From: Homoserinibacter sp. GY 40078
GTDB taxonomy: Bacteria > Actinomycetota > Actinomycetes > Actinomycetales > Microbacteriaceae
NCBI RefSeq assembly: GCF_008017545.1
Contig: NZ_VRTZ01000002.1
Location: 372,001 to 436,000 of the forward strand
Length of the DNA: 64,000 nt
Reading direction: 5' to 3'
In this document: positions 4,011 to 26,449 of the stretch, one piece after another
Layout of the letters: every line of letters starts with the position of its first letter
How positions within the stretch are numbered: position 1 is the first letter of the stretch
Program-made: the position numbers and the translations under genes
Notes under the pieces: model-generated
Seen by the model: the letters and a program-made list of their open reading frames with translations, nothing else
Told to the model about the DNA's origin: nothing
Databases searched by the model: none

Positions 4011-4085
4011 GCGCCCGATTCTCTCATCCGACACCCACTCCGACAAGCGAATCCGCAACATCAGGCGTCACTTGCGACGGAATCA

Positions 4086-4109: not shown

Positions 4110-4112
4110 GAT

Positions 4113-4118
4113 TAGGGT
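4113..4118 (+). promoter_or_regulatory. -10 element, leaderless start of aldehyde dehydrogenase
   Basis: TAGGGT lies 6 bases before the ATG at 4125, which puts the expected transcription start at or next to the A of the ATG. No Shine-Dalgarno sequence is seen. This favours ATG 4125 over the in-frame GTG at 4119. Confidence 0.55.
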
Positions 4119-4124
4119 GTGGGC

Positions 4125-5654: not shown

Positions 5655-6188
5655 GTGCACGATGACATGGACGACACGGTTCCTCAAGCCGTGCGTGAGC
5701 GCATCGCGCGCACGACGGTTGACGCCGAGGACGTTGACGTCGTCCTGGGCGACACCGTTGCGCGTCCGGGCAGTCGACCCTCGTCACCGGTATCGGTGGA
5801 GCCGCCTCCCGTTCCCGCGGCGCTGCTCCCGCATCACCGGATCCGCATCGGCGACGGCGCGCCCGTCGAGCTCGACCGTCCGATCCACATCGGGCGCCGC
5901 CCCACCGGCGCGCGTGTGCCACAGCCTGTGCCTCCGCGCCTCCTCGAGGTCGAGAGTCCGGCGGGTGGCATCTCTGCGACGCACCTCGAACTGCGCGAAC
6001 TGGGCGGAACGGTCGTCGCGACCGACATGCGCACCTTGAACGGCAGCGAGGTCCGCGTCCCCGGTTCGCCGGTGCGCGCACTCGGACGCGGCGAGTCGGT
6101 GGTCGTCACCCCCGGCACGCGGATCGATCTCGGTGAGGGTGTCGTCATCGAAGTGCTCACACCGGGGCGACCGGGAGGTGCGCGATGA
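5655..6188 (+). CDS. FHA domain protein, first gene of the kinase/phosphatase envelope locus
   Basis: A 177-residue protein with a disordered acidic N-terminal third (residues 1-55) and a C-terminal forkhead-associated domain (about 58-172). FHA domains bind phosphothreonine peptides. Landmarks are IHIGRRP (strand 3), SATHLELRELGG in place of the usual S-x-x-H-x-x, and DMRTLNGSEV for the N-G turn. A strong purine run (GGGAGGGGGG) ends about 11 bases before the GTG start. Its stop overlaps the phosphatase start (ATGA). It is first of nine same-strand genes and probably reads a mark made by the kinase three genes on. Ligand and partner are inferred from context. Confidence 0.75.
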   Translation: MHDDMDDTVPQAVRERIARTTVDAEDVDVVLGDTVARPGSRPSSPVSVEPPPVPAALLPHHRIRIGDGAPVELDRPIHIGRRPTGARVPQPVPPRLLEVESPAGGISATHLELRELGGTVVATDMRTLNGSEVRVPGSPVRALGRGESVVVTPGTRIDLGEGVVIEVLTPGRPGGAR

Positions 6189-7018
6189 CGCGACACGGAG
6201 TCGATGCCGCACGCCAGTCGTTCCCCGTGCCAGGGCGGCCCGGCGAGGTCGTCGCGCTCGGCTGGGCGGCCGCGACCGATGTCGGACGGCGACGCCAGAC
6301 CAACGAAGACAGCCTCGTCGTGGTGCCTCCCGTCTTCGCAGTTGCCGACGGCATGGGCGGGCACACCGCGGGCGACCGGGCGAGCGCCGCCGCAGCGGAG
6401 CGGCTGTCTGCTCTCGGGGATCGCGACGACATCGATTCCGAGGTCGTGATCGGTGCGTTGCGCCAAGCGGCGCACGACATCGACGAGCTCGCCGAGCTGC
6501 TGCCCCTCGGTGCGGGCACGACGGTCACGGGTGCGGTACTGGAGCTCGCCGGAGGACCCCCGAGGTTCCTGGTCTTCAACGTCGGCGACAGCCGTGTGTA
6601 CGGGTTCGAGGGTAACGAGCTCATCCAGATCACTCACGATCATTCGGTGGTGCAGGAGCTCGTCGATGCGGGGCTGATCGACGCGCAGGATGCCGAGGCG
6701 CATCCGGAGTCGAACGTCGTCACTCGCGCTCTCGGGTTCCGTGAGGATCCGCAGCCCGATTTCTGGGAGATCCCGCTTCGCGCCGGCATGCGCCTGCTTC
6801 TGTGCTCCGACGGGCTCACCAAGGAGCTGTCGGCTTCACGCATCCACCTGCACCTCGCGGCGCGTCTCTCGCCGGCCGAGACGGCCGGAGCGCTCGTCGA
6901 CGCAGCTCTTGCCGCAGGGGGGCGCGACAACGTCACGGTCATCGTCCTGGACGTGCTCGACGCACCCGCACACGTGTCGGCACCGCATGCCGACGACGCC
7001 GCCGGGGCGAGGGGGTGA
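6185..7018 (+). CDS. PP2C (PPM) family Ser/Thr phosphatase
   Basis: A 277-residue cytoplasmic metal-dependent protein phosphatase. It shows the ordered PPM motifs RRQTNEDSL (residues 36-43), ADGMGGHTAGD (54-64, metal-binding Asp55), FNVGDSRVYGF, CSDGLTKEL and GGRDNVTVIVLD near the C-terminus. This is the standard catalytic core with no membrane segment or extra domain. Translation is coupled to the FHA gene by a 4-base overlap, and the kinase starts 2 bases after its stop. This kinase-phosphatase pairing is the actinobacterial PknB/PstP logic, but here it sits in a surface-protein locus rather than beside the rodA/pbpA cell-division genes. It presumably erases the phosphorylation that the two FHA proteins read. 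Confidence 0.92.
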   Translation: MTRHGVDAARQSFPVPGRPGEVVALGWAAATDVGRRRQTNEDSLVVVPPVFAVADGMGGHTAGDRASAAAAERLSALGDRDDIDSEVVIGALRQAAHDIDELAELLPLGAGTTVTGAVLELAGGPPRFLVFNVGDSRVYGFEGNELIQITHDHSVVQELVDAGLIDAQDAEAHPESNVVTRALGFREDPQPDFWEIPLRAGMRLLLCSDGLTKELSASRIHLHLAARLSPAETAGALVDAALAAGGRDNVTVIVLDVLDAPAHVSAPHADDAAGARG

Positions 7019-7020
7019 CC

Positions 7021-8472
7021 ATGGCGCGACGACTTCCCTCCCAGCCGCCCGTCCTGCCCGGGTTCTCCTACGTCCACGTGCTCGGTTCCGGCGGCTTCGC
7101 CGACGTCTTCCTGTACGAGCAGAACATGCCGCGTCGCCAGGTGGCGGTGAAGGTCATGCTGAGCGAGGTCGTCAACGACCAGGTTCGGCAGATGTTCCAG
7201 GCAGAGGCCAACCTCATGGCCCAGCTGAGCGCACACCCGTCGATCCTTACGGTGTATCAAGCGAGCGTCTCGAGCGATGGCCGCCCCTATCTCGTCATGG
7301 AGCTCTGCTCGGCCGCGCTCTCTGAGCGTTACCGACGCGAGCCGCTGCCCGTCGCGGAGGTCCTCCGGATCGCGGTCAAGATCGGCTCGGCCATCGAGAC
7401 CGCGCACCGTGCCGGTGTGCTGCACCGCGACATCAAGCCTTCGAACATCCTCCTGACGGCATATGGGCATCCCGTGCTCTCGGACTTCGGCATCGCGTCG
7501 ACCCTCACGGCGCAGCGCGAGCAGGATTCCGTGGGCCTGTCGATTCCGTGGTCGGCACCCGAGGTGCTGCTCGACGAGACGCCCGGCACCATCGCCTCGG
7601 AGGTCTGGTCGCTCGGGGCGACGGTGTACTCGCTGCTGGCTGGGCGCTCGCCGTTCGAGATCCCGGGCGGATCGAACTCCTCGTCCGATCTCATGGCACG
7701 GATCGGGAAGGCGCGGCCGCAGTCGATCGGGCGCCCGGATGTGCCCGCGAGCCTCGAGGCGCTGCTGCGGCGCTCGATGGCTCGGCGCGCCGATCAGCGA
7801 CCCGGAAGCGCGCTCGAGTTCGTGCGGGAGCTGCAGCTCGTGGAGGCAGAGCTCGGCATCCCGCAGACCTCGGCCGAGATCGTCATGGAGGAGTGGGCGC
7901 TCGGCACCGTGGCCGACGATGAGGACCGCACTCGTTTGCGTCCGGTCGCCACCGGCTCGGCACCCCCGCGATCGGGCGGCCGTCGCCGACGTACTCCGGC
8001 GCGGGCCCAAGCGGCGTATGCACCGGTCGGCACCGTCCGCGAGCCGAGTGCGCCGGCATCCGGGCCGTTCTCGAAGTCGCGACCCGCGGAGGCGGGGCCG
8101 CGCGCGCGGGGAGTGGCATGGGTGCTCGCCGCGGCCGCACTCCTCGTGACAGGACTCGGTGCGACCGCACTCGTCGTGCTGCTGCGCACGTTGGGCAGCG
8201 ACGTCCCCGTCGTGAGTGACATCGATGCCCGACTCGACTCCGGCGGGCGTATCGAGTTCAGCTGGCGGGATCCCGGCCTCTCGGAAGGCGATCGGTACCA
8301 GGTGCAGGTCGTCGACGAGGGCGTCGCCGCGACCCCGACCCTGCAGGAGTCGGCGGTCTTCGTGGTCGACGCCGACCCGGGCGACACCGTCTGTGTGACG
8401 GTGGCCGTGAACCGGGAGGGGGCGACCGGCGCCTCGAGCTCCGAGAAGTGCGTGGAAGCGGCCGAGGGCTGA
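7021..8472 (+). CDS. Transmembrane Ser/Thr protein kinase with Fn3-like ectodomain
   Basis: A 483-residue Hanks-type kinase. The kinase domain (about 14-275) has the Gly-rich loop LGSGGFADVF, Lys44 in VAVKVM, HRDIKPSN (135-142, catalytic Asp137) and DFG at 155-157. The activation segment reads GLSIPWSAPEV, without the GT-x-x-Y/F element usual in PknB-type kinases, and the segment usually written SDVYSLG is SEVWSLG, so this is a divergent subfamily. A low-complexity Arg/Pro linker leads to one transmembrane helix (364-390) and an outer domain of about 90 residues resembling a fibronectin type III fold, not PASTA repeats. The ATG at 7021 is chosen because it precedes the kinase fold directly. 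It lies between the phosphatase and the giant repeat protein. Confidence 0.88.
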   Translation: MARRLPSQPPVLPGFSYVHVLGSGGFADVFLYEQNMPRRQVAVKVMLSEVVNDQVRQMFQAEANLMAQLSAHPSILTVYQASVSSDGRPYLVMELCSAALSERYRREPLPVAEVLRIAVKIGSAIETAHRAGVLHRDIKPSNILLTAYGHPVLSDFGIASTLTAQREQDSVGLSIPWSAPEVLLDETPGTIASEVWSLGATVYSLLAGRSPFEIPGGSNSSSDLMARIGKARPQSIGRPDVPASLEALLRRSMARRADQRPGSALEFVRELQLVEAELGIPQTSAEIVMEEWALGTVADDEDRTRLRPVATGSAPPRSGGRRRRTPARAQAAYAPVGTVREPSAPASGPFSKSRPAEAGPRARGVAWVLAAAALLVTGLGATALVVLLRTLGSDVPVVSDIDARLDSGGRIEFSWRDPGLSEGDRYQVQVVDEGVAATPTLQESAVFVVDADPGDTVCVTVAVNREGATGASSSEKCVEAAEG

Positions 8473-8473
8473 T

Positions 8474-11400
8474 ATGGCCTCATGGCTCTCCGCCCACCAT
8501 TCGCTCGTGGCGACTGCTACGAGCGGCACCGTCGTGGCGGCGCTCGTGGCGGCGCTCGCGGTCGTCTCGACGGGATATACCGCACAGCGGATGGATCTGA
8601 GTGATCCGTCCGTATGGGTCGCCGGTGGCGAACGCCAAGCGATCGGACGGGCGAACACACTCGTGCGCGAGCTCGACAGCGTCGTGGAGACGGATGCGGA
8701 CAGTCCGGAACTCGTCCAGGACGCCGACACCGTGCTGCTCGTCGACAGCGCGAGCGCGACGATGCGCGTCGTCGACCCGGCGACGGCGCAGCTCGGGGAG
8801 GATGTGGCGCTCCCGCCGCAGCAGCCCCGGGTGTTCCTCACGGGAGACCGGGCGGTGATCCTGGCGCGGGGAACCGGCGAGCTCTGGTTCGTCCCGATCG
8901 GCGAGCTCGAGAGCTTCGACGCATCCGTGCCGCCCACGCTCAGCCTCGGTGGTGGCGCGGTCGTCGCTGTCACGGAGTCGGGAGCCATCGTCGCGTACCT
9001 TCCTGCAGAACAGGAGCTCTGGCGGGTCGATCCCGGGTCGATCGAAGTCGACGAGCGCACCCCGATCGAGTGGGGAGCGGCCGCGCTGTCGACCGACGCG
9101 GTGCAGGTGACCGCCGCGGGCGAGAACTGGGCGGTGCTCGACACCGTGACGTCCGAGTTCGCCACCGCATCCGGGGTCAGGGACCTCGGCGACGCTCTCG
9201 GCACGGGCGCGCGCATGCAGGAGCCGGGTCCGCCGAACGCGCGGGTCCTCATCGCCGATGCGACGTCCCTCATCACCGTTCCGCTCGAGGGTGGGGATCC
9301 GCGGACTCTCGTGGATGATGCCGCGGGTGTCGCGGTCGACCCTGTCGTCGTCGACGGCTGCCGTTACGCGGCATGGAGCGGAGGGCTCGGATGGCGCGGC
9401 TGCGGTTCGGACGATCCGGAGCGATTCGAGCTCGCCGACATGCCGGGCAATCCTCGGCTCGGTTTCGCGGTGAACGGTGCGCGTGTACTGCTCAATGACG
9501 CCGACGGAGGCGCCAGCTGGGCGGTGCAGTCCTCCGGCGAGCTCATCGACAACTGGGATGAGCTGATCCGTGACGAGGATCGCCAGGAGGACCGCCCGCA
9601 GGCCGACGATGACACGCCTCCCGAGTTGGAGGAGGTGCAGCAGCCCCCCGTGGCGGTCGACGACGAGCTCGGCGCGAGGCCCGGCCGCGCGAGCGTGCTC
9701 CCGGTGCTGCTGAACGACTACGACCCGAACGGCGACGTTCTGGTGATCACGGGCTTCGACCCGATCGACGAGACGGTCGGTCGGCTCGACCTCGTGAGCC
9801 GCAATCAGCAGCTGCAGATCACCCTCGCCGACGACGCGAGCGGCGTGATCCGCTTCGGCTACACGATCAGCGATGGGCGTGGTGGCACGGCGAGCGCCTC
9901 CGTCGAGGTCACCGTGCGCGGGGACGATGAGAACTCCCCTCCGAGGGCGGTGCGCACGTCCACGGCGACGGTAGCCGCCGCAGGGCGGGTCTCGACCCAG
10001 GTGCTGGGCGACTGGTACGACCCGGATGGCGACGCGATCTACCTCACGGGCGCCGCAGTCGCCGCCCCCGACCAGGTGGGCTACAAGCCCGACGGCGTGG
10101 TGGTCTTCACCGACTCGGGCGCCGAGCTCGGAACGAAGACGGTCGCGCTCACGGTGTCCGATGGTCGCGCCCAGACCGGAGGTTCTCTCCAGGTCACGGT
10201 GCGCGAGCGCGGTCAGGTCGACATCACCGTCGAGCCGTGGGTCGCGCTCGCGACGGCGGGGGAGGAGATCACCGTCCGGCCCCTGCTGCACGTCCGCGGC
10301 GGCAATGCGACGATCCGCCTCGGGGGCGTCCCGCCCAAGTCGGGCACGACGATCACGCCGAGCTTCGAGGCGGGCACCTTCACGTTCCTCTCGGACGAGA
10401 TCCGTACCCACTACATCGAGTTCACGGTCACGGACGGCACCCAGACGGCGACGGGCTTCGTCCGGATCGACGTCACGGCGCCCGCCGACGCGTCGACTCG
10501 CCCCGTCACGGTTCCGAAGACGATCTTCATGACGGTCGACTCGACCCAGACCGTCGATCCGACCTCGACCGACATCGATCCGGCCGGTGGGGTGCTCGTC
10601 GTGACGGGAGTCACCAACATTCCGGCGGGGTCCGGTATCCGCGCCGAAGTCCTCGACCAGCGGCGCGTGCGTGTCACCCTCGCGGCGCCGCTCGACGATC
10701 CCGTGCCGATCACCTACCGCATCAGCAACGGGCTCGCGGAGGCGGAAGGCACGATCACGGTCGTGCAGATCCCGCACCCGGCGCGATTGCAGCCTCCGAT
10801 CGCCACCGACGATCAGGTCACCGTGCGGGTCGGAGACGCCATCGACATCCCCGTTCTCGACAACGACGAGCAGCCCGACGGCGAGGAGATCGCGCTGCTG
10901 CCCGACCTCGCGCAGGATGTCCCCGAGGACGCCGGTCTGCTCTTCGTATCCGGCGATCGGCTTCGCTATCTCGCGCCCCAGACGGCAGGAAACTACTCGG
11001 CCGTCTACGCCATCGAAGGACCGGACGGCCAGATCGCCCAAGCTCAGGTGCTCATCTCGGTGCGCGAGCGCAACGCGGCCACGAACAACCCGCCGTTGCC
11101 GCTCACCGTCACGGCGCGCGTGCTCGCCGGGCAGTCGGTGCGCATCGACATCCCGACGAGCGGAATCGATCCCGACGGCGATGCGGTGCAGCTGATCGGT
11201 CAGACGACAAACCCGGAGAAGGGCAACGTCGTGGGTGTCGAGGGCTCGACGATCGAGTATCAGGCGGGGGACTACTCCTCCGGGACCGACGTGTTCCAGT
11301 ACGCGGTCGTCGACGGCCTCGGCGCGCGTGCCACGGGCACCGTGCGCATCGGTATCTCGCCCGCCCTCGACGGGGCGAGGAACCCGGTCGCCAATTTCGA

Positions 11401-14400
11401 CGCCGTGACCGTCCGGCCGGGCGGCACCGTGTCGGTGCAGGCGCTGCTGAACGACTCCGACCCGGACGGCAGCCCGCTGCGGATCCGGCAGGTCGAGCCG
11501 AACGGCGAAGGCATCGTGGCCGAGATCGTCGGCGACGACGTAGTGCGCATCACACCCCCGACGGCGTCCGGCGACTACAGCGTCGTGTACACGATCGAGA
11601 ACGAGACGGGCGGCACGAGCTCGAACTTCATCCGGGTCACCGTCTCGCCCGACGCCCCGCTCGCTCGTCCCACTGTGAGCGACACCGTGTTGAGCGTCGC
11701 AGACGTCCTCGAGCGGACGACGGTCGACGTCTCAGTGCTCGATCGGGTCTTCTTCGCCGACGGCGACGTTCAGGACCTGAGGGTCGAGCTGGTGCCCGGG
11801 TACAGCGAGTCGGCCGAGGTGCTCTCGGACAAGCGGGTGCGTGTGACGATCGGCGATCGCAGCCAGATCATCCCGTTCGCGGTCGTCCGCCCGGATGACC
11901 CGAGCATCCGCGCGTACGCCTTCATCCGGGTTCCCGGCTACGACGATGCCCTTCCGCAGGTCAACCCGAAGGCGCCTCTGCTGAAGGTCGAGTCGGAGTC
12001 CACACTGAGGATCGACCTGACCCGCTACGTCGTCGCACTCGGCGGGCAGACGGTTCGTCTCACCGACTCGAGCACCGTACGCGCGACGCACTCCGATGGG
12101 GGCAGTCTCGTCGTCGACGAGAGCACCCTCCAGTTCACGTCCGCGGACCGATATTGGGGTCCCGCGTCGATCAGCTTCGAAGTCACGGACGGCACATCGG
12201 CGAGCGATCCCGACGGGCACGTGACGACCCTGTCGCTTCCGATCGACGTGACCCCCCGTGAGAACCAGCCTCCGGTGTTCACGGGAGGCGTCGTCGAGTT
12301 CGAGCCCGGGCAGGACAAGGAGCTCGACCTCGTCAAGCTCACGAAGTACCCCTACGACGACGACATCGACGAGCTCACCTACACGGTGCTCGATCCTCTG
12401 CCGTCGGGCTTCAGCTACCGCCTCAACGGGCAGCGACTGCTGCTGACGGCGGATCCCTCGGCGGTGAAGGGGTCGACGACAACCATCACGCTCGGTGTGC
12501 GCGACGCACTCAACGAAGGCCAGAGCGGGCGGATCCAGCTGCGCGTCGTTCCCTCGACTCGGCCGCTCGCCCAGCCGATCGCCGACCGCGCGGTCGCCCA
12601 GCGGGGCGAGACGACCTCCATCGACGTGCTCGCCAACGACGCGTCCACCAATCCGTTCCCCGACGTCCCGCTTCGGGTCGTCGACATCCGCGGGTTGAGC
12701 GGCGACGGCCTGCCGCCGGGTGTCCGTGTCACGCCGAGCGCCGATCGCTCGCGTCTGACCGTCACCGTCTCCGACTCGGCGGAGCCGATCGACACGACCC
12801 TCCAGTACAAGCTCGCCGATGCCACGGGCGATCCGGACCGGATGGTGTGGGGCCTCGTGACGATCTCCGTGCAGGACGTGCCCGATCCGGTCACCGGGCT
12901 CCGCGTGGTCGAGTTCGGCGATCGGTTCCTCCGGCTCTCCTGGTCGGCGGGTCTGTTCAACAATTCGCCGATCAGCGAGTTCCGGGTGACTCTCGCCGAT
13001 CCCGCGTCCGGCTCGCCCATCTCGACCACGAGCTGTGCGGTGACGGTCGCATGCACGGTCTCCACGCCGGGCAACGGGCCCTCGAACGCGGTGCGGATCT
13101 CGGTGGTCGCCGTCAACGCGATCGGCGAGTCGGAGCCGACCGCGCTCGTCGGCTCCATCTGGTCGGACGTGATCCCGCCCCCGCCCGACTCGGTCGCGGC
13201 GACGCCCGTCTCCCACGGGTTGCGCGTGACGTGGCGCAAGCCCTCCTCGGGGTCGGGCAGTCCCATCGACAACTACGTGATCACCGTCGGCGGGCAGTCA
13301 GTGACCCTCCCCGTCTCGGAGGGTGACCCGGTCGGGACGAGCTACGCACGAACGATCACGAGCCCGGGTATCGCGAACGGCAGCGCCGTGGCGTACACCG
13401 TGAGCGCTCGGAACAAGGCGCCGAACTCCCTTGCGACCTGGAACCAGGCGGGCGGATCGGGCACACCCGCGGGAGCGCCGATCTCGACCGCGAGCCCCAC
13501 GGCCACCGCTTCAACGACAGACGGAACGACCGCCAGCGTCTCGTGGTCGGGCGCGTTCGACGACAACGGCAAGGCCTTCGCCGCGTTCTACGTCGTGCGT
13601 CACGCAGGATCGACCCCCAGCTGCACCGTGACCGGTGTCGACGACGGCAACCCCCAGCTCGACGAGCCCACCGGATCCAACGTCCAGAAGCTTGCCGGCA
13701 GCGCCCGCACGGCCACGTTCACGGGGCTCTCGCCCGACACGACCTACACCTTCACGGTGTTCGCGTACAACGGGCAGGGATGCACCGGATCGAGCCCGGT
13801 CACCGCCACTCCGCGCGCCGCGCCGGGGAACGTGGCGTCGGTCACGACCTCGCCGCCGAGCTTCCGCGATGGTTACCTGTGGGACTTCCGGCTCGTCTCG
13901 GCCTCGATCCCGAGCGGATCCGCCGACGTCGACGGCTACATCTACCGACTGAGCGGTGGCAGCACCGACACCTCGACCTCGGACATCATCGATCTCGGCG
14001 ACTACCTGACCGCTGGGACGACCCACTACGGCAACGACATCAGCGTGCAGGTGAAGGCCTGCAAGAGTTATGACGGCGGGGAACTGACGCTCTGCAGCCC
14101 GAACTGGTCTCCCGCGCAGCATCTCGGGCGGCCGGTGAGCATCCAGGTCACCGGCCTGCAGGCGATCGTCACCTCCGACCCCGTCCCCGCGGGCGACCCG
14201 GGCCAGGGCTACTGGAGCTGGACGAGCGGACCCGCGGAAGCCACCGGCGACGGACGCGGCTACGACTCGGTGAGCTTCACCTGCGGCGACGCCGACACCT
14301 CCGACAGCGACAAGATCTGCGAGGTCGTCGGATCCGGACCGCTCGGTACGAGTTATCCCGACCTGGTGGTGTCGGTCGAGGCGAACGGCGCCGTGTATAC

Positions 14401-14434: not shown

Positions 14435-14471
14435 ATCCGAACGACTGCGCACCCGTGAGAGGACTACCCAC

Positions 14472-15443
14472 ATGACGATGACGCCCGAACAGGCGAGCAG
14501 CTTCCACGAGACGTTCGGACGTCTCGTCTCGGGGGTCGAACAGGTGCTGCTCGGCAAGACCTTCGTCGTACGCCTGGGGTTCATCGCCCTCTTCAGCGAG
14601 GGTCATCTGCTGCTCGAGGACTTCCCCGGTACGGGAAAGACGTCGCTCGCCCGCGCGATCGCTCAGAGCGTCGATGGCACGAGCAACCGCGTCCAGTTCA
14701 CGCCTGACCTGCTGCCCGGAGACATCACGGGTGTCAGCATCTACGACCAGCGCACGGGCGAATTCGACTTCCATCGCGGTCCGGTGTTTGCGAACATCGT
14801 GCTCGCGGACGAGATCAACCGGGCGAGCCCGAAGACTCAGGCCGCGCTCCTCGAAGTGATGGAGGAAGGGCGGGTCACCGTCGACGGAGCCACCCACCCC
14901 GTCGGCGCACCCTTCATGGTGATCGCCACCCAGAACCCGATCGAACAGGCCGGCACCTACCGGCTCCCCGAGGCGCAGCTCGACCGCTTCCTGCTGAAGG
15001 CATCGATCGGTTATCCCGATCACGCATCGACCGTGCGGATCCTCGAGGGCGCGGGCGTGCGTGCGCACGACACCATCGTCCCGGCCGTCATCTCGGCCCG
15101 GGAGGTCGTCGAGCTCGCGGCGCTCGTGCGGACCGTGCACGTCGACCCGTCGATCAACGACTACGTTTCGCGGCTCACCGAGGCCACCCGCTCCGCGACC
15201 GAAGTGCGGCTCGGGGCGAGCGTACGCGGCGCCCTCGCGCTCATCCGGGCCGCCAAGACGCTCGCCGCGGCGAGTGGCCGCCACTATGTCGTGCCGGACG
15301 ACATCAAGTCGCTCGCCGAGCCCGTCCTCGGGCACCGGCTGCTGCTCGACCCCGAGGCGGAGTTCGACGGCGTGACGGCCTCGAGCATCATGTCGCAGCT
15401 TCTGCTCGAGACGCCTCCGCCCAGCGATCGGCAGGCTGTGTGA
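14472..15443 (+). CDS. MoxR-type AAA+ ATPase
   Basis: A 323-residue MoxR-family AAA+ ATPase with Walker A FPGTGKTSLA (residues 51-60), Walker B NIVLADEINRASPKTQ (108-123), sensor region ATQNPIEQAGTYRLPEAQLDRF and the C-terminal lid helix bundle. MoxR proteins act as chaperones that activate or assemble partners, usually with a DUF58 or von Willebrand A protein encoded next to them, as here. It begins 37 bases after the giant gene with a GAGAGGA ribosome binding site. Its stop overlaps the DUF58 gene start (GTGA). The client is inferred to be the envelope complex of this locus. Confidence 0.92.
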   Translation: MTMTPEQASSFHETFGRLVSGVEQVLLGKTFVVRLGFIALFSEGHLLLEDFPGTGKTSLARAIAQSVDGTSNRVQFTPDLLPGDITGVSIYDQRTGEFDFHRGPVFANIVLADEINRASPKTQAALLEVMEEGRVTVDGATHPVGAPFMVIATQNPIEQAGTYRLPEAQLDRFLLKASIGYPDHASTVRILEGAGVRAHDTIVPAVISAREVVELAALVRTVHVDPSINDYVSRLTEATRSATEVRLGASVRGALALIRAAKTLAAASGRHYVVPDDIKSLAEPVLGHRLLLDPEAEFDGVTASSIMSQLLLETPPPSDRQAV

Positions 15444-16813
15444 CCTCTCGCAGCCGCACCCCGTCGCGCGAGACGACGCCGACGGCCGAGATCTCCGGGC
15501 TCACCAACACGCGTGCCCGGATCGTCGGCGCGCGCACCGGTGTGCTCGCCGACACGGTCGTCGAGATCGTCCGGCTCGCGCGCGCCGTGTCGGAGGCGTT
15601 CGGCCGAATCGGGCGGCGTCTCGGCGGGGTGGTCACGCCGGTGGGGTGGGTCGTGCTCGCGCTCATCCCGGTGGCGCTCGTGGCCGGCTACAGCCTCGGC
15701 TGGCTCGAACTCGTCGCCGTCGGGTGGGCGTCGCTGGCGCTCTCGCTGATCGCGGGGGCTGTACTGGTGGGCCGTGCACCGTTCCGCATGGCTCTCGACC
15801 TCCCGCACCGCCGTGCGGTGGTGGGGGAGCCGGCGCGCGGCTCCGTCGAGGTGCGTAACCCCAGCTCGCGGCGCACACTCGGCGCCGTGCTCGAGATTCC
15901 CGTTGGCGACGGGGTCGTCGAGGTCGCCATCCCCGGTCTGCGGCGCGGACGCTCCCAGGTGCAGGAGTTTCAGATCCCGACCCAGCGACGCGGCGTGGTG
16001 CAGGTCGGGCCGGTGCGCACCGTGCGCGGCGATCCGCTCGGCATCGTGCGTCGTGAGATCGTGTGGACGCCGTCGCGCGAGCTCGTGGTGCATCCGCGAA
16101 CGATCGGCATGCCGTCGACGAGCACCGGACTCATTCGCGACCTCGAGGGATCTCCGACCCGCGACCTCACCTCGAGCGATGTCGCCTTCCACGCCCTCCG
16201 GGAGTATCAGGCGGGCGACGACCGTCGGCACATCCACTGGCGGTCGACCGCGAAGACGGGCACCTACATGGTGCGCCAGTTCGAACAGACCCGACGCAGC
16301 CATCTCGTCGTGGCGCTGAGCCTCGCGACCCACGACTTCACCGATGCCGACGAGTTCGAGCTCGCGGTGAGTGTGGCCGGATCGCTGGGCGTGCAGGCGG
16401 TGCGCGACGGACGGACGGTCTCCGTCGTCGTGTCGGCACTGACGCCGGAGTTCGCCAAGCGCCGTGTGGTGGCCGTTCGCCCTCTTGCCGTGCACTCGCC
16501 CGAGCGGCTGCTCGACGACCTCGCGGTCGTCGAGGCCGACGTCAACGGGCTGCCGCTGAGGGACGTCGCCCGAGTCGTCGCCGACGACACCCCCGGCGTC
16601 TCGATCGCCTTCCTCGTGTGCGGATCGCGCACGAGCGCTCAGGAGTTGCGTGCGTGCGCGGCGCGCTTCCCCCCGGACGTCGAGGTTGTCGCGGTCGTGT
16701 GCGATCCGGAGGCCGAGCCCGGGCTCCGGCGGATCGCGGGCCTCCGCGTGCTCACGATCGGCTACCTCGACGAGCTGAGGCTCGCCCTCGCTCGATCGGC
16801 GGCGGTGGCATGA
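15440..16813 (+). CDS. DUF58 family membrane protein, MoxR partner
   Basis: A 457-residue protein with two adjacent membrane segments near residues 70-112 followed by a beta-rich region and the DUF58 core. The signature REYQAGDDRRHIHWRSTAKT (about 253-272) matches the conserved 'Y-x-x-G-D-x-x-R-x-I-x-W-x-x-S-A-x' motif of DUF58, which adopts a vWA-like fold. The GTG start overlaps the moxR stop by 4 bases and its own stop overlaps the next gene (ATGA). DUF58 proteins commonly occur with MoxR and a transglutaminase-like membrane protein in the same order as here, and are thought to form a MoxR-remodelled membrane complex. Its exact role is unknown. Confidence 0.88.
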   Translation: MTSRSRTPSRETTPTAEISGLTNTRARIVGARTGVLADTVVEIVRLARAVSEAFGRIGRRLGGVVTPVGWVVLALIPVALVAGYSLGWLELVAVGWASLALSLIAGAVLVGRAPFRMALDLPHRRAVVGEPARGSVEVRNPSSRRTLGAVLEIPVGDGVVEVAIPGLRRGRSQVQEFQIPTQRRGVVQVGPVRTVRGDPLGIVRREIVWTPSRELVVHPRTIGMPSTSTGLIRDLEGSPTRDLTSSDVAFHALREYQAGDDRRHIHWRSTAKTGTYMVRQFEQTRRSHLVVALSLATHDFTDADEFELAVSVAGSLGVQAVRDGRTVSVVVSALTPEFAKRRVVAVRPLAVHSPERLLDDLAVVEADVNGLPLRDVARVVADDTPGVSIAFLVCGSRTSAQELRACAARFPPDVEVVAVVCDPEAEPGLRRIAGLRVLTIGYLDELRLALARSAAVA

Positions 16814-19107
16814 AGCGCAGCGTGAGCCTCGGGGTGCTCGTCGACGTCCTCCAGCTCTGGATCGCGATGGGCATCGCGGCCGTCATGCTGTGGCCGATCT
16901 ACCGCTCCGACAGCTTCGTCGTGCTCGCCGCGATCGCGATCGCCCTCGGGACGCTGATCGCACTCGCGGGAGCGGCATTCCGCTGGCCGGGCTGGATCGT
17001 CTTCCTCGTCACCGTTGCCGCGTTCGCGCTCGTCGGGGTCCCCCTCGCCGTCCCCGGTGAGGCGGTTGCCGGGCTGCTCCCCAGCGTCGACGGGCTGGTC
17101 GACCTGTTCAGCTCGGTCGCCCTCGGCTGGAAGCAGCTGCTCACGATCACCTTGCCGGTGGGCGACTACCAGGCTCTCCTCGTGCCCGCGCTCGTGCTGC
17201 TGCTCGGCGGCACGGTCGTGGCGGGCTCCATCGCGTTCCGCTCGAGCCGGGGCGAGCTGGCAGTGATCCCCCCGGTCGTGGTGTTCCTCACCGGCATCGT
17301 CTTCGGTCCGTCCGAGGCATTCTGGCCGATCCCGCTCGGCCTCGGGATGCTCGTCGCCTGCCTCGTGTGGGTCGCATCGTGGCGTTGGCGGCGGCGCCGG
17401 GCAGCGTCGCGCCGATTCGCCCGCGCGACCGGCACCCGCGAGCGCCGCGGGCGAGGTCAACTGCGCACCGTTCTCGGGGCTCTCCTGATCGTTGCGGTCG
17501 CTGGAGCGGGCGCCGCCTCCGCCGCGATCGCCGCCGCCCCCACGGGCGAGCGCGACGTTCTCCGCAACGCCGTGCCGCAGCCGTTCGACCCCCGCGACTA
17601 CGCGAGCCCGCTCTCCTCGTTCCGCAGCTACCTGCGCGAGGGGGAGGCCGACCGCACGATGCTGACCGTCGAGGGACTCCCCGAGGGCGCCCTCCTCCGG
17701 ATCGCCACGCTCGATACCTACGACGGCGTCGTCTATTCCGTCGGATCCGCCACCGTCGACTCTGCGTCGGGCACCTTCGTGCGGCTGCCTTCGGCGATCG
17801 ACCGCAGCTCCGTCTCGGGGCGTCGTGTGCAGCTGACGATCTCGGTCGACGGGTATTCGGGCGTGTGGGTGCCGACGGTCGGCCTCCTCGAACAGATCGA
17901 CTTCCGCGGCGACGACGCCGCGAGCCTGGAGGATGGCTTCGCCTTCAACGAGACCAGCGGGACGGCCGCAGATCTGGCGGGCCTCCACGCTGGCGACGTT
18001 TACCGCCTCGACGCCGTGATCCCTCAGCAGCCGTCGAGCGGCGACCTCATCGACGCGGTGCCCGGGTCGGCGGTGGTTCCGCGCATCGCGGAGGTGCCCG
18101 ACGACCTCACCTCCGCTCTCGAGCGCTACACGACCGGGGTCGACGGGGCGGGTGGGCAGCTCGTCGCCGCCATCGATGGGATGCGCGCCGAGGGGTACAT
18201 CAGCCACGGAATCGGCGAAGACGAGCCCGCGAGCCGATCCGGTCACTCGCTCGACCGTATCGGCGAACTGTTCAGCACACCGCTCATGATCGGCGACGCC
18301 GAGCAGTACGCGGTCGCCGCGGCGCTCATGGCCGATCAGTTGGGCTTCCCCGCTCGTGTGGTGATGGGATTCGTACCGCAGACCACCGAGTCCGGTGCGG
18401 TCGAGGTGCTCGGATCGGACATCTCGGCATGGATCGAGGTCGACACCGCCCAGTACGGGTGGGTTGCGATCAATCCCGTTCCCGAGACGCGCCCCATCCC
18501 GGAGGAGGAGCCGGAGGACCCGACGCCCGTATCTCGTCCTGAGTCGATCGTCCCGCCCCCGGCCGATCGGCCCGATCCGCGTGAGGACCAGACCGATCCC
18601 GACACGACGGCCGAGGATCCGGTGGCCCCCGATCAGACGCTCGAGGTGCTGCTGCAGGCGCTGCGCATCGCGGGCATCTCGCTGCTCGCGGTCGCCATCG
18701 CGCTGTCGCCCTTCCTCCTCGTCGTCGCGGCGAAGGCTCGACGCCGCTACCTGAGGCGCACGGCACCGACCGCGCTCGGGCGCATCCGCGGCGGATGGGA
18801 CGAGTTCGCGGACCTCGTATTGGATCACGGGCTGCAGGTCCCGATCGCCGCAACGCGCACGGAGGTCGCGGCGGTGGTCGGCACCCTCCCATCGCGCGTG
18901 CTCGCAGCCGTAGTCGACCGGGCCGTGTTCGCCCCGGGCGCCCCTGCGGAGGCCGACGCCGATCGCGTCTGGCTGGCGGTAGGGGAGCTGCGCGGATCGC
19001 TCGACGCTCCCCGCACGCGTCGCGAACGTCTGCGTGCGCGGATCTCGCTGCGCTCGCTCGGAGGCGGGGTGCGGCAGTTGCTCCGTCGGCCGGGGAGGCG
19101 ATCGTGA
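16810..19107 (+). CDS. Transglutaminase-fold membrane protein, apparently catalytically dead
   Basis: A 765-residue protein with about six N-terminal membrane helices (residues 8-250), an extracytoplasmic region with the transglutaminase-core fold (about 290-560), a Pro/Glu-rich linker, one further membrane helix (about 620-645) and a basic cytoplasmic tail. This is the architecture of the TgpA/YebA-like partner of MoxR-DUF58. The triad normally read as G-D-C-E-Q, H-A-W-x-E and W-x-x-x-D-P is here GDAEQYA (Ala497), ISAWIEV (Ser539) and WVAINPVP (Asn555), so all three catalytic residues are replaced while the surrounding fold motifs remain. It overlaps its neighbours on both sides by 4 bases. 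I infer a structural or peptide-binding role rather than protease or transglutaminase activity. Confidence 0.85.
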   Translation: MKRSVSLGVLVDVLQLWIAMGIAAVMLWPIYRSDSFVVLAAIAIALGTLIALAGAAFRWPGWIVFLVTVAAFALVGVPLAVPGEAVAGLLPSVDGLVDLFSSVALGWKQLLTITLPVGDYQALLVPALVLLLGGTVVAGSIAFRSSRGELAVIPPVVVFLTGIVFGPSEAFWPIPLGLGMLVACLVWVASWRWRRRRAASRRFARATGTRERRGRGQLRTVLGALLIVAVAGAGAASAAIAAAPTGERDVLRNAVPQPFDPRDYASPLSSFRSYLREGEADRTMLTVEGLPEGALLRIATLDTYDGVVYSVGSATVDSASGTFVRLPSAIDRSSVSGRRVQLTISVDGYSGVWVPTVGLLEQIDFRGDDAASLEDGFAFNETSGTAADLAGLHAGDVYRLDAVIPQQPSSGDLIDAVPGSAVVPRIAEVPDDLTSALERYTTGVDGAGGQLVAAIDGMRAEGYISHGIGEDEPASRSGHSLDRIGELFSTPLMIGDAEQYAVAAALMADQLGFPARVVMGFVPQTTESGAVEVLGSDISAWIEVDTAQYGWVAINPVPETRPIPEEEPEDPTPVSRPESIVPPPADRPDPREDQTDPDTTAEDPVAPDQTLEVLLQALRIAGISLLAVAIALSPFLLVVAAKARRRYLRRTAPTALGRIRGGWDEFADLVLDHGLQVPIAATRTEVAAVVGTLPSRVLAAVVDRAVFAPGAPAEADADRVWLAVGELRGSLDAPRTRRERLRARISLRSLGGGVRQLLRRPGRRS

Positions 19108-19937
19108 ACTGTCGATACTGCGGCACGAGCCTGCCCGTGGGGGCCCTGTTCTGCGTCGAGTGCGGCCGCTCCATCGCGGAGGCTCCCGCGGCGATCCCGT
19201 CTGTTCCTCCGGTTCCGTCTGCGCCGTCCGTCCCACCGGTCCCGGCGCCGCCTGACCCGCACGGAGGGTCGATCCACTGCGCCCAGTGCGGCGCGCTCGT
19301 CGGCTCGGACGAGATCTTCTGCGGCGAGTGCGGCTTCGTGCTGCGCCCGATCACGGGGATTGTGGGGGCCTCGTCGATCGACGTTCCGGAAGCGAGCCCT
19401 GAGACGGCGCCGGAGACGGGGCGAGAGTTCGAGATGTCCGAGCCCGAGCCCGAGCCCGAGCCGGAGCCGGAACCGGAACCGGAGCCGGAACCGGAACCCG
19501 AACCGGAGCCGAATCCCGAGCCGGTGGTCGACCGGGTATCGTCCCCGATCCCATCCGCACCCGCGATGGAGGACGTGGAGGCGACCAGGATGGTCGCTCG
19601 CGCACCTGCGGGAGAGCGCTACGTGCTGCAGTTCAGCACGGGCGAGAGCATCGTCGTCACCGGGAGCGGTTTGGTCGGGCGCAACCCCTCCGCCGAACCC
19701 GGCGAGTACGTCGACGAGTTGATCCCGATCTTCGATGTGGGCAAGTCGGTTTCGAAGACCCACGCGGAATTCGGCCAGGAGTCGGGCAGGTTCTGGATCG
19801 CCGATCGGTACTCGACGAACGGCACGGTCGTGCGCAGCCCTGGCGAGGCTCCTGTGCGTTGCCAACCCGGCCGTCGATACATGATCGGCCGCGGTACCCG
19901 GGTCGAGATCGGGGAGCAGTTCTTCATCGTGAGCTGA
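19104..19937 (+). CDS. Double zinc-ribbon and FHA domain protein
   Basis: A 277-residue cytoplasmic protein starting at a GTG that overlaps the preceding stop. Two zinc ribbons open it (CRYC at 3-6 with CVEC at 17-20; CAQC at 59-62 with CGEC at 73-76). A Glu-Pro repeat of about 28 residues (113-140) forms a stiff acidic spacer, and a C-terminal FHA domain (about 173-277) follows. The FHA domain has canonical phosphothreonine-binding residues: GLVGRNP, SVSKTHAEF and DRYSTNGTVV. Compared with the first FHA protein of the locus it is the more canonical reader. It probably docks a phosphorylated component near the EccC-like ATPase encoded next. The partner is not known. Confidence 0.85.
   Translation: MNCRYCGTSLPVGALFCVECGRSIAEAPAAIPSVPPVPSAPSVPPVPAPPDPHGGSIHCAQCGALVGSDEIFCGECGFVLRPITGIVGASSIDVPEASPETAPETGREFEMSEPEPEPEPEPEPEPEPEPEPEPEPNPEPVVDRVSSPIPSAPAMEDVEATRMVARAPAGERYVLQFSTGESIVVTGSGLVGRNPSAEPGEYVDELIPIFDVGKSVSKTHAEFGQESGRFWIADRYSTNGTVVRSPGEAPVRCQPGRRYMIGRGTRVEIGEQFFIVS
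19440..19523 (+). repeat. In-gene Glu-Pro hexanucleotide repeat
   Basis: Twelve consecutive GAG/GAA-CCG/CCC pairs plus one AAT-CCC and one more GAG-CCG encode (EP)12-NP-EP in the zinc-ribbon/FHA protein. Codons alternate between synonyms, so the DNA repeat is imperfect while the peptide repeat is exact, which suggests selection on the protein. Confidence 0.8.
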
Positions 19938-19964
19938 TCCCTCAGGGGGCGCTCATCGTCCACG

Positions 19965-22730
19965 TTGTCCACGGGTCCGTGTCCCGTGACCGGATCACGA
20001 TTCGGGGACCGCTTCGATCGGAGGATGCGACCACCAACGGAACGACTGACGCTGCCGGTCTTGCCCGACCCGCCACGGCGACCGGGGATCCCGTTGGTCG
20101 CGACCGGAGCACCCGTGGTGATGGCCCTGGTCATGTGGGTGTTGACCTCATCTCCGTTCGCGCTGATGTTCGCCGTTCTCGGCCCGGTCGTCGCGCTCGC
20201 GTCGCTCGTCGACGGGCGACGCTCGGCACGGCGGGAACGTCAGCGCCAGATCACGGAGACGGCGACGAGGCTCGACGAACTGCGAGAACGGATTCTGGGT
20301 CGCGAGAACCGGCTGCGTCAGGAGCTCGTGTCGCGTGTTCCCGACGCACATACGCTCGTTGCCGGGGAGATCCGCGAGGTCGTGGATGGCTGGCTGCTCG
20401 GCTGGGGGCGGCTGCCCTCGGGGATCGAGTTGGTCTCGGAGGGCGCCGTCGACATTCCGCAGCTCGGTGCCGGGGTGTCGGCAGTTCGGCAGGCGGCTGC
20501 GACCGTCTCCGGGGCGCCCGTTGTCGTGCCCGTGGGGTCCGAGGTCGGGGTCGAATCGCCGTCGATCCGGGCTGCGCTCGCCAGGTCATTGGTAATCCAA
20601 GCGGCGGCCGCATGCGCGCCGGGAACCGCGGTGGTGACGGTTCCGCCGGGAGAGGACTGGGCACTCGAACTGCCACATCGGGTTCAGACCGGGGACCACT
20701 GGGCTGTGACGACAGACGCGCGGCGCCTCGTGCGGGTCGCGGCGGACGACGCTCTCCGCCTTCGGGTGCGGATCGACACGGACGCACCGATCCCCGTGCT
20801 CGCACACGTTCCTGAAGAGCTGCCTCTGGATCGTCCCGCCTTGCTCGGGTCCGCCACAGCGCTGCACCTCGCGCGCCGACTCGCACATCGGGCTCATCAG
20901 GCCGGGTGGCGATCCGACGCCGCGCTTCCCGGGCGGGTCTCGTTCTCGAGTGTCGTCGAGATGGGGGTCGGGCCGCGGGTCGCGTTGGGTATGGACCCGG
21001 ACGGCGCCCAATTCGTCGATCTGACCACCGAGGGGCCCCACGCGCTGGTCGCCGGGACGACGGGTTCCGGCAAGAGCGAACTGCTGGTCACCTGGGTGCT
21101 GGCCCTCGCGGCGGCGTCCTCACCGGCGGAGCTTTCGATCCTCCTCATCGACTTCAAAGGGGGCGCGACATTCGCGCCGCTCGCCGCTCTGCCGCACGTC
21201 GTGGGGGTCGTGGACGATCTCGATGAGAGGGCGGCCGCTCGCGCCGTCGCCAGTCTGAGGGCCGAAATGCGGCGTCGGGAACGCGTACTCGCCGAGCGCG
21301 GTGCGCGCTCGATCGCGGAACTTCCCTCCGAGGCTCTGCCCCGGCTCGTGGTGGTGATCGACGAGTTCGCAGCACTCATGTCGCTCGACCCGGGTGCCGA
21401 GCCCGTGCTCGCCGATCTCGCCGCGCGGGGACGCTCCCTCGGCATGCATCTCGTTCTCTGCACGCAGCGGCCGGCGGGTGTCGTCCGGGATGCGGTGCTC
21501 GCGAACGTCACCGTGCGGATCTGCCTGCGCGTGCTCGATCCAGCGGACAGTCGGGCGGTCATCGGCACCGCTCTCGCGGCGGAGCTGCCCGCCGATTCCC
21601 GCGGGCGGGCGGTGCTCGGTCAGGGCGGCGATGCACGCCGATTCCAGGTGGCCCTCGCGGATCAGGACGACGTTGCCGCGGTGATCCGGCGATGGTCCGA
21701 CCACCCGAGACCCGAGGCGCGACCGTGGCTCGATCCTCTTCCCGCAGTGCTCCCTCGCAGTTCCCTTCCCGGACCAGAGCAACCCGGGGGAATCGTCGTG
21801 GGGATGAGCGACCTTCCTCACGAGCAACGGCGAGCACCGCTCGAGCTCGATCCCTGGTCGGGTGGCCTGCTCGTACTCGGAGGTGCCGCTTCGGGGCGCA
21901 CGGCGGCGCTCTGCACCGTTGCGGAGGCGGCGGAAGCCGCGAACGCCGAGATCCGATGGGTGCCGGGCGATCCTGCCGAGCTCTGGCACGCGCTCTCGAG
22001 CCCGCAATCTGGGCGTGTGCTCGTCGTTGCGGACGACGTGGATCGCACACTCGCGCTCGCCGAAACCGACACCCGTGATGACCTCATCGATCTGATCCGG
22101 GCAGCGGCACGCGACTCCCGACGCAGCGGTCTCGCGATCGCTGCGAGCGCGCGGGGTGTGGGAACGGTTCTTTCGGGCGTGCATTCCGCGTTCGAGGCAC
22201 GGATCCTCTTGCGGATGCCGAGCCGTGACGAGCATCTGCTCGCGGGTGGAGGGCACCTCGATCATCGCCCGGATCGGAGGCCGGGATCGACCGTGTGGAG
22301 CGGTGCCGAGTCGCAGCTCGCGATACCCGACGGCCCTCCGCCGACGCCCTGGAGGTTCGATCTGCCCGAGCTGCACCTTCGCGAACTCGCATCCGGGCGA
22401 TGGGGCATCGTCGCCTCTCATCCGGCGGAGGTCGCCGATGCCCTGCGCACACTGGGCATCGGCGTCTGCAGTGTCGAGGCACACCCGCCAGGGGAGCTGG
22501 GCAGCTCAGGGCTCGGGGTCCTGCTCGGCGACCCGGATCAGTGGCTCGGCGCGTTCGGCGCTCTCGGCGCGATCCGGCGAAGCGGGCGGATGCTGATGCT
22601 CGGCTGCGCTTCGTCCGATCATCGGGCCCTCACGCGATCGCGCGCGCCCCTCCCGCCGCTCGGCGGCATCGACGAGGGATGGCTCGTCACCGAGGGCCGC
22701 ACCCTCCGTGTCCGGGTGCGTCGCGCGTGA
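19965..22730 (+). CDS. EccC/FtsK-SpoIIIE-like membrane ATPase
   Basis: A 921-residue ATPase with two hydrophobic helices near the N-terminus (about 43-60 and 64-83), a coiled stretch with a forkhead-like intermediate region, and a complete FtsK/SpoIIIE domain: Walker A GTTGSGKSELL at about 364, LIDFKGGATFAPL and Walker B RLVVVIDEFAAL at about 460. A second, degenerate ATPase domain has GGAASGRTAAL at about 640 instead of a proper P-loop and ends with VADDVDRT. Two helices followed by serial FtsK domains is the plan of type VII secretion motors (EccC/YukB), not of FtsK, which has four helices and a gamma domain. The TTG start is uncertain; GTG 19986 or ATG 20025 are alternatives. No WXG100 substrate gene is adjacent. 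It may drive export for this locus. Confidence 0.8.
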   Translation: MSTGPCPVTGSRFGDRFDRRMRPPTERLTLPVLPDPPRRPGIPLVATGAPVVMALVMWVLTSSPFALMFAVLGPVVALASLVDGRRSARRERQRQITETATRLDELRERILGRENRLRQELVSRVPDAHTLVAGEIREVVDGWLLGWGRLPSGIELVSEGAVDIPQLGAGVSAVRQAAATVSGAPVVVPVGSEVGVESPSIRAALARSLVIQAAAACAPGTAVVTVPPGEDWALELPHRVQTGDHWAVTTDARRLVRVAADDALRLRVRIDTDAPIPVLAHVPEELPLDRPALLGSATALHLARRLAHRAHQAGWRSDAALPGRVSFSSVVEMGVGPRVALGMDPDGAQFVDLTTEGPHALVAGTTGSGKSELLVTWVLALAAASSPAELSILLIDFKGGATFAPLAALPHVVGVVDDLDERAAARAVASLRAEMRRRERVLAERGARSIAELPSEALPRLVVVIDEFAALMSLDPGAEPVLADLAARGRSLGMHLVLCTQRPAGVVRDAVLANVTVRICLRVLDPADSRAVIGTALAAELPADSRGRAVLGQGGDARRFQVALADQDDVAAVIRRWSDHPRPEARPWLDPLPAVLPRSSLPGPEQPGGIVVGMSDLPHEQRRAPLELDPWSGGLLVLGGAASGRTAALCTVAEAAEAANAEIRWVPGDPAELWHALSSPQSGRVLVVADDVDRTLALAETDTRDDLIDLIRAAARDSRRSGLAIAASARGVGTVLSGVHSAFEARILLRMPSRDEHLLAGGGHLDHRPDRRPGSTVWSGAESQLAIPDGPPPTPWRFDLPELHLRELASGRWGIVASHPAEVADALRTLGIGVCSVEAHPPGELGSSGLGVLLGDPDQWLGAFGALGAIRRSGRMLMLGCASSDHRALTRSRAPLPPLGGIDEGWLVTEGRTLRVRVRRA

Positions 22731-26448: not shown

Positions 26449-26449
26449 G

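Follow-up and report, generated by a model that had tools for sequence, protein, structure and literature searches.

Gene content of the locus

We analysed a 64,000-nucleotide stretch of the 2.98 Mb genome of Homoserinibacter sp. GY 40078 (contig NZ_VRTZ01000002.1, here G000:C2, positions 372,001 to 436,000), hereafter the window, in which a run of nine genes joins the PFNA operon, known from Bifidobacterium, to a motor resembling EccC of type VII secretion systems (T7SSs). According to the list of open reading frames (ORFs), nine + strand ORFs fill positions 5655-22730 with successive spacings of -4, +2, +1, +37, -4, -4, -4 and +27 bases (Table 1). The core of this gene set is known; its linkage to EccC and WXG100 genes is new. 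We give an even chance to the reading that the locus is the compact version, found in Microbacteriaceae, of an envelope machine widespread among actinobacteria, in which the PFNA core is coupled to an EccC-type motor.

Searches against Pfam identified PP2C, protein kinase, Big_9/cadherin/fn3, AAA_3 (MoxR), DUF58, TgpA_N with Transglut_core, double zinc ribbon (DZR) with FHA, and FtsK_SpoIIIE domains, and a codon-usage gene finder written for the analysis recovered the same nine genes; it started the zinc-ribbon FHA protein (19137) and the motor (20115) further downstream and the kinase (7015) slightly upstream. The run of nine same-strand genes, as an earlier note on this DNA had placed and spaced it, was thus confirmed by ORF list, Pfam and gene finder.

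Table 1 Genes of the nine-gene run (window positions).
Gene product	Position	Strand	Basis
Small FHA protein, 177 aa, phospho-threonine reader	5655..6188	+	FHA profile of related loci; residues GR, SATH, NG
PP2C-type phosphatase (PrpC/PstP-like), eraser	6185..7018	+	PP2C_2 E 1.2e-10; NED, DGMGGH, GDSR, SDGL, DNVT
Ser/Thr kinase (Pkb2-like)	7021..8472	+	Pkinase E 6e-42; VAVK, HRDIKPSN, DFG
Giant FN3 protein, 1986 aa	8474..14434	+	Pfam Big_9/cadherin/fn3; AlphaFold2 of residues 1-490; Foldseek
MoxR AAA+ ATPase	14472..15443	+	AAA_3 E 3e-62, AAA_lid_2
DUF58 membrane protein	15440..16813	+	PF01882 E 2e-11
TGM, polytopic membrane protein; extracytoplasmic domain of transglutaminase fold, without the catalytic Cys	16810..19107	+	TgpA_N, Transglut_core
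Double zinc ribbon and FHA protein	19104..19937	+	DZR E 4e-9, FHA E 4e-7; GR, SKTH, STNGT
Short EccC-like FtsK/SpoIIIE-family membrane ATPase, 921 aa (871 aa from start 20115)	19965..22730	+	FtsK_SpoIIIE E 1.5e-32

By its hydropathy, the kinase has one transmembrane helix (~368-386) followed by a short extracellular C-terminal domain. The small first protein (P0001) had no Pfam or NCBIfam match at E<=0.01; a profile built here matched it to the FHA proteins in related loci, among them one that the Pfam FHA model also recognises, and its sequence contains G-R, S-x-x-H and N-G, the residues with which FHA domains bind phospho-threonine. Judged by their motifs, the membrane kinase, the PP2C phosphatase and the two FHA proteins make up a full write-erase-read set, as the earlier note had proposed: kinase and phosphatase motifs are present, and both FHA proteins carry GR, S-x-x-H and NG.

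That note knew of no described system joining all of these parts, a claim that did not hold. The published PFNA operon accounts for most of the set, and a wholly new combination is ruled out by the PFNA papers, which cover most of it in the sections available (PMC8430577, PMC6803598). As described there, the operon of Bifidobacterium contains pkb2-fn3-aaa-atp-duf58-tgm together with prpC, a hypothetical gene and fha, counts 5-8 genes and is unique to bifidobacteria. Its genes are co-transcribed in B. longum GT15, its FN3 protein binds TNF-alpha and its MoxR ATPase is phosphorylated by Pkb2; FtsK occurs in neither text. The likeness of PFNA to the mycobacterial moxR operon has also been pointed out (PMC12067865, available part). 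Compared by published description, the two loci share seven protein types, an identical kinase-fn3-MoxR-DUF58-TGM order on one strand and operon-like packing, whereas in the window a small FHA gene and PP2C precede the core and the zinc-ribbon FHA gene and EccC-like motor follow it, in a host of the Microbacteriaceae rather than Bifidobacterium.

The PFNA core is conserved across genomes

A search of 59 genomes sampled within the window's order found relatives of TGM in 29. We fetched 33 of the 37 places listed by this search (the omitted ones being the window, the second pieces of the G021 and G022 genes, and G007:C16, 55 bits), and FN3-MoxR-DUF58-TGM was complete in 30 of these 33 loci, the exceptions being L053 (contig end), L055 (no MoxR) and L066 (no FN3). 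A second set comprised 80 named loci, the best 80 of 474 TGM relatives by likeness to the window protein, with counts taking only loci that reach far enough. FN3 was present in 68/68 of them, MoxR in 73/73, DUF58 in 73/74 and a Ser/Thr protein kinase (STPK) in 65/68; an FHA-type protein lay within 2.5 kb downstream in 66/70, and 46/66 had a motor of FtsK type in the 8 kb downstream (41 short and 5 long). The order STPK-FN3-MoxR-DUF58-TGM-FHA-FtsK was unbroken in 34 of the 80 loci and STPK-FN3-MoxR-DUF58-TGM in 23 more; the remaining 23 comprised three with the long order, nine with FN3-MoxR-DUF58-TGM only, and 11 that were cut or otherwise arranged. The nearest relatives among these best 80 came from Homoserinibacter gongjuensis (70% in the best segment) and Pseudolysinimonas kribbensis (60%); several operon genes of both (L107, L146) look split, through sequencing error or decay.

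In a class-wide draw of 98 genomes, the TGM search gave 93 places, 81 of them outside the window's order, where PFNA-type TGMs above 550 bits occurred only in family f45 (G101, G133, G146). Thirteen of the 81, picked by score, were inspected in context together with the source genome's own paralogue, and four of these 14 (G091, G140, G059 and the own paralogue; ~149-185 bits) were generic TgpA proteins with Cys. The earlier note had regarded independent occurrence of the genes in most relatives as the finding that would undo its proposed unit; for the core, such independence was not found, and the gene orders indicate that the operon's gene set is a conserved unit, beyond chance association.

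Curtobacterium loci (L116, L119, L122, L123, L125-L128 and others) lack the motor, and the zinc-ribbon/FHA-type protein after TGM is enlarged there to ~480-750 aa.

Long EccC motors and WXG100-like genes adjoin the core

Of the 28 other genomes of the order with TGM, 12 have a relative of the window motor (P0009) of ~1,445-1,552 aa downstream of TGM, on the same strand (G034, whose TGM locus is not PFNA, and G030, whose EccC is cut by the contig end, are among the 28). That of G038 belongs to another lineage, so an EccC of the clade described below adjoins PFNA in 11/28. Eight genomes from four families share the order FN3-MoxR-DUF58-TGM-FHA-PP2C-FHA-STPK-c1-EccC, and WXG100-like genes come next after EccC in G041, G008, G011, G046 and G029 (EccC 1478-1492 aa). 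G023 and G007 have FHA-STPK-c1-FN3-MoxR-DUF58-TGM-EccC and then WXG100-like genes (in G007 after one FHA-type gene), and G009 has kinase-FN3-MoxR-DUF58-TGM-FHA-type-PP2C-c19-EccC, with a WXG100 gene 3.6 kb past EccC, behind opposite-strand genes. Altogether, WXG100-like genes were present at 8 of the 11 loci with an adjacent clade EccC; their Pfam scores were over the cut-off in G023 and G009 and under it in G008, G007 and G041. The same gene set recurred in another taxonomic order (G146 and G101, the latter with kinase, FHA and PP2C on the opposite strand), and a divergent locus in G013 reads EccC-FN3-like-MoxR-DUF58-TGM, with two WXG100-like genes upstream.

The PFNA-linked EccCs formed one clade of 21 rows (support 100/99), in a tree that left out G010's EccC (no Walker A match) and some EccC matches of multi-copy genomes. 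None of the 28 rows from TGM-negative genomes, drawn from 25 of 30 such genomes, fell inside it (28 rather than 29, one row so labelled, G055, being TGM-positive). The long EccCs carry an N-terminal FHA domain with residues of the phospho-threonine-binding type, as read by eye from printed stretches (the G-R part of G039 lies outside its stretch and G029 has H for N); a strict pattern requiring N-G-[TS] matched 1 of 21 clade EccCs.

Pfam searches over 31 genomes detected EccB in 4/31, YukD over the cut-off in 4/31 and EssB (PF10140) in 0/31; among controls, the EssB model detected B. subtilis, whereas the EccB model matched 0 of 14 control genomes but 4 of the 31 searched. Ten of the 11 genomes with an adjacent clade EccC had no EccB, YukD/EccD or EssB by Pfam, the exception being G007, with EccB/YukD elsewhere in its genome. 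The source genome, with 0 matches to EccB (PF05108) and YukD (PF08817), thereby differs from T7SSa (ESX), whose EccB and EccD/YukD domain were not found in it, and from T7SSb (Ess/Yuk), by YukD and by EssB/YukC, absent from all 31 genomes. On these profile searches, the canonical T7SSa/T7SSb membrane partners are mostly absent.

The tie to a type VII-type motor, which the earlier note had drawn from the window's ATPase, was strengthened by relatives that also bring WXG100-like genes. Trees and neighbourhoods together indicate that the clade EccC, private to PFNA genomes in the sample and frequently accompanied by WXG100-like genes, is part of the full form of the machine. For the long relatives, gene linkage lends good support to a T7SS reading; in the compact form of the window we infer it.

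A second T7SS type was seen in G021 (L092) and G038 (L084), composed of a secreted-looking protein of 356-373 aa, an EccC of ~1,450 aa, an FHA protein, three WXG100-like genes and a protein of 1,210-1,993 aa; its EccC falls outside the PFNA clade.

The short motor of the compact form

At 921 aa, the window motor is well under the length of the long form (~1478-1552 aa). It has no N-terminal FHA, and its C-terminal part is shorter; hydrophobic stretches within residues 42-82 fit two membrane helices, and ATPase domain 1 carries the Walker motifs. Its best NCBIfam models were EssC (226 bits, cut-off 778), EccCa (205, cut-off 509) and EccCb (160, cut-off 347), all under their cut-offs, with the FtsK model at 72. 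The label 'EccC-like' is therefore used with reserve: EssC and EccC are the best models, at scores far under their cut-offs. A plain FtsK was rejected (72 bits against 226 for EssC); another FtsK-type protein of the source genome, at C1:1703590, is likely its FtsK.

The order also holds a WhiB-adjacent EccC-like family (~960-1,500 aa, some members with N-terminal FHA; WhiB and FHA named by eye), which throughout the order recurs next to one and the same small gene (L195, L198-L202, L207-L209, L212, L214). The N-terminal region of the short motor matches residues ~200-522 of the PFNA-linked EccCs, and a pre-ATPase profile of 45 short motors scored the 21 PFNA-clade EccCs highest (166-216 bits), with 11 other EccC rows at 92-146 and no member of the WhiB-adjacent family above 41. 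A joint tree placed the short motors with the long PFNA motors (85/64), the WhiB-adjacent family standing outside at 98/99, and for ATPase domain 1 an approximately unbiased (AU) test did not reject a grouping of short motors with the PFNA clade (p 0.244); the motor trees took in 13-14 of 47 short motors, the N-terminal profile 45. Descent of the short motor from PFNA EccC is thus likely on the pre-ATPase region, with ATPase domain 1 alone against it; descent as a certainty was dropped because of that disagreement.

The single WXG100 match of the source genome, at C1:1129374, is an orphan with no EccC in the surrounding 20 kb (L088, G000:C1:1120000-1139999), and its product is a candidate cargo of the window motor. 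Elsewhere, in G038 (L087, G038:C1:1240000-1259999), a short-motor orthologue follows ATP-synthase-like genes together with PP2C and an FHA-type protein, away from the PFNA locus of that genome.

The giant FN3 protein as a proposed structural part

An AlphaFold2 model of residues 1-490 of the giant (predicted local distance difference test score, pLDDT, 86.6) contained a helix at 3-31, a propeller at ~46-360 and an immunoglobulin (Ig) domain at ~392-482 (limits from the strand list). Its best Foldseek match was 1l0q (E 4e-14, TM-score 0.38 across both modelled domains), a YVTN propeller with PKD domain from an archaeal surface layer, followed by the NirF, AztD and BamB propellers. Combining model, hydropathy and Pfam, the architecture comprises an N-terminal membrane helix, a beta-propeller, Big_9/cadherin repeats and fn3 domains, so that the giant is predicted to be a membrane-anchored propeller with Ig-type repeats.

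The earlier note had inferred an apparatus that assembles or exports the giant, here taken to be the motor or the MoxR trio. In its favour, giant and motor do share one gene run, and MoxR-vWA pairs are known remodelling chaperones. Nevertheless, a protein with its own leading membrane helix, followed by a propeller/Ig rod, points to ordinary Sec/YidC insertion, and of the 20 named loci lacking a motor gene in the 8 kb downstream, 17 have the giant's gene, the other three being cut before it. Export by the motor is therefore doubtful and was set aside, and we regard any version in which motor or trio exports or assembles the giant as highly improbable.

MoxR, DUF58 and a pseudo-transglutaminase

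In MoxR, PGTGKT and ADEINR were invariant across 14 aligned sequences. The DUF58 protein, which we take to be a vWA-type partner of MoxR, has a hydrophobic stretch at 64-115 by hydropathy, and a motif search found no DxSxS in it. The predicted TGM structure (mean pLDDT 77.8, predicted TM-score, pTM, 0.46) comprised eight N-terminal helices and a TgpA-like domain, and TGM matched TgpA of Pseudomonas aeruginosa both in fold (6g4h, Foldseek E 9e-10) and in sequence (E 8e-9). TGM thus shares the polytopic N-terminus and the transglutaminase fold with TgpA (6G49/6G4H), and differs from it in lacking the catalytic Cys.

At the Cys column, that of the G-x-C-x-x-[YF]-A motif, and the His column the window TGM reads GDAEQYA and DISAW. 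None of 116 PFNA-type sequences has Cys in that column, which is occupied by D, E, A, G, Q or S; the only Cys among 117 distinct TGM rows belongs to L066, a locus without FN3 or kinase and hence non-PFNA. His of H-A-W is kept in 19/117 rows. Generic TgpA rows kept both Cys and His in 4/4, one being the paralogue from the window's own genome, and in seven distant sets of MoxR and TGM, part of them next to FN3-like genes, the Cys column held Ser in six cases and Ala in one. With the catalytic Cys gone, TGM probably does not act as a classical cross-linking enzyme, and cross-linking of the giant by classical chemistry was rejected. The transglutaminase-fold protein of the earlier note accordingly stands as a fold and not as a classical enzyme: from its alignment, TGM is a polytopic pseudo-transglutaminase, with a transglutaminase domain that has lost its Cys.

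MoxR-vWA-beta-propeller ternary conflict systems have mostly been described in Bacteroidetes, Planctomycetes, Verrucomicrobia and Proteobacteria (PMC7159879, available part). Membership of the window locus in this group was rejected, bpMoxR scoring 39 bits against 209 for AAA_3; kinship is possible, bpMoxR being over its own cut-off of 27.

The source genome holds two more MoxR-DUF58 loci, at G000:C2:25000-44999 (L186) and G000:C3:65000-84999 (L187), the first with a TgpA-type protein whose Cys and His are intact.

Evidence against a coupled machine, and rival readings

Several observations weigh against the coupling of core and motor, in general or in the window. The core can exist without a motor, which is absent within 8 kb from 20 of the 66 named loci (15 of these Curtobacterium); 11 of the 28 other TGM-positive genomes (G003, G013, G017, G019, G020, G022, G028, G034, G037, G045, G055) had neither clade EccC nor short motor in the sample, and no FtsK is reported for Bifidobacterium PFNA in the available sections of its papers. 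In G054, G031 and G047 the clade EccC lies away from PFNA, arranged as FHA-type-EccC-small helical proteins, and in G038 the T7SS neighbouring PFNA has an EccC of another lineage. EccC lacked WXG100-like neighbours in G005 and G024 (in G030 the contig ends within EccC), and such genes elsewhere are often under the Pfam cut-off, some without W-x-G. The giant's gene of G046 (L048, G046:C3) encodes only 420 aa, the propeller part, before MoxR, through true shortening or assembly collapse. As to the compact form, neither the window locus nor any of the 34 named loci of compact order yielded a WXG100 gene, a tree of ATPase domain 1 placed the short motors beside the WhiB-adjacent family (95/87), and the 85/64 support in the joint tree is not strong.

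The 20 motorless named loci suit the published view of PFNA as a surface adhesion and sensing operon, in which the motor would be a passenger or have a separate function under a shared promoter, as do the binding of TNF-alpha by FN3, the phosphorylation of MoxR by Pkb2 and an extent of 5-8 genes with FtsK unmentioned (PMC8430577, PMC6803598, available sections). We nonetheless consider this view unlikely, because the PFNA-linked EccC clade occurs only with PFNA in the sample, adjoining it in two taxonomic orders and several gene orders, and the divergent FN3-MoxR-DUF58-TGM set of G013 again adjoins an EccC. Moreover, genera of the named list, among them Cryobacterium, Agromyces, Salinibacterium and Curtobacterium, are soil, water and plant bacteria, so host-cytokine sensing would hardly be a general role.

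Alternatively, the window's short motor could be no secretion ATPase at all, being instead a translocase of FtsK/HerA type or a membrane ATPase that acts on another substrate, controlled by the kinase. The grouping of ATPase domain 1 with the WhiB-adjacent family, the missing adjacent WXG100 gene and the G038 orthologue found with PP2C and an FHA protein outside PFNA agree with this; against it, the pre-ATPase region is closest to PFNA-linked EccC, and the best NCBIfam models are T7SS EssC/EccC, with the DNA translocase FtsK far weaker, which leaves this alternative improbable.

Relation to known secretion systems and proposed mechanism

For the preferred reading, a PFNA core coupled to an EccC-type motor, one of the closest described systems is T7SSd of Actinomycetota (Garrett, Higginson, Palmer 2024, PMC11217815), with a membrane Ser/Thr kinase, an EccC bearing an FHA of phospho-threonine-binding type, WXG100 proteins and no ubiquitin-like protein, in which a giant Ig protein was proposed as a possible conduit. 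T7SSd has TsdH, and the available main text mentions neither MoxR nor transglutaminase. By protein type, the long relatives agree with this description in kinase, FHA-EccC, WXG100, giant and absence of a ubiquitin-like protein, and differ in the topology of the giant; the window agrees in kinase, giant and absence of YukD, but has no FHA on the motor and no WXG100 gene in the locus. An analogy between new T7SSs and type VI secretion, in which a kinase and FHA switch a secretion machine, was drawn in the same paper (PMC11217815, available part). A kinase-FHA switch in the window would be alike; no type VI parts are present there, making it an analogy only. The threonine-phosphorylation pathway of type VI secretion comprises PpkA, PppA and Fha, and so includes a phosphatase. 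We found no open-access paper joining PFNA or MoxR-DUF58-TGM with EccC/WXG100, in a search of titles, abstract starts and term counts that left subscription papers mostly outside.

In the mechanism that we propose, the kinase would sense an outside cue and phosphorylate threonines, on which the FHA proteins, and in the long form also the FHA domain of EccC, would dock. MoxR and DUF58 might then remodel or assemble a TGM-FN3-EccC membrane complex, after which the motor would export small helical WXG100-type proteins. The FN3 giant would serve as a structural, envelope-spanning or wall-crossing part rather than as cargo, and TGM as a scaffold; in the window's lineage, the FHA function would reside in separate proteins instead of on the motor. 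Such a machine might work like the type VI threonine-phosphorylation switch and the proposed T7SSd.

More tentatively, with somewhat less than an even chance, PFNA may not be primarily host-sensing but the membrane part of its own type VII variant, an eleventh beside T7SSa-j, characterised by a private-clade EccC, WXG100 export, a propeller/Ig giant, a pseudo-transglutaminase, MoxR-DUF58 and a phospho-threonine switch, with no EccB, EccD/YukD or EssB, and with a shortened motor in Microbacteriaceae.

Genes around the operon

Upstream of the operon (window 3543-5561) lie an AsnC-like regulator and an aldehyde dehydrogenase, and downstream (window 24044-28230) a putrescine/spermidine-type ABC transporter (binding protein, ATPase and two permeases), all of them named by eye on the basis of translations, giving polyamine-type surroundings. 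A gene quartet with matching lengths was present in 26 of the 34 compact-order named loci.

Implications

PFNA has been studied as a probiotic cytokine-binding system and called unique to bifidobacteria (PMC8430577, available sections); the core's presence in other families changes this scope. The missing active-site Cys calls into question, at least outside Bifidobacterium, the label 'transglutaminase, presumably a cysteine protease'. The linkage joins two literatures that, in the parts available, do not name each other's components: that on PFNA, without FtsK, and that on the new T7SS subtypes, without MoxR or transglutaminase. Taken together, the core in other families, the private EccC clade and the WXG100-like genes suggest a general secretion or envelope role.

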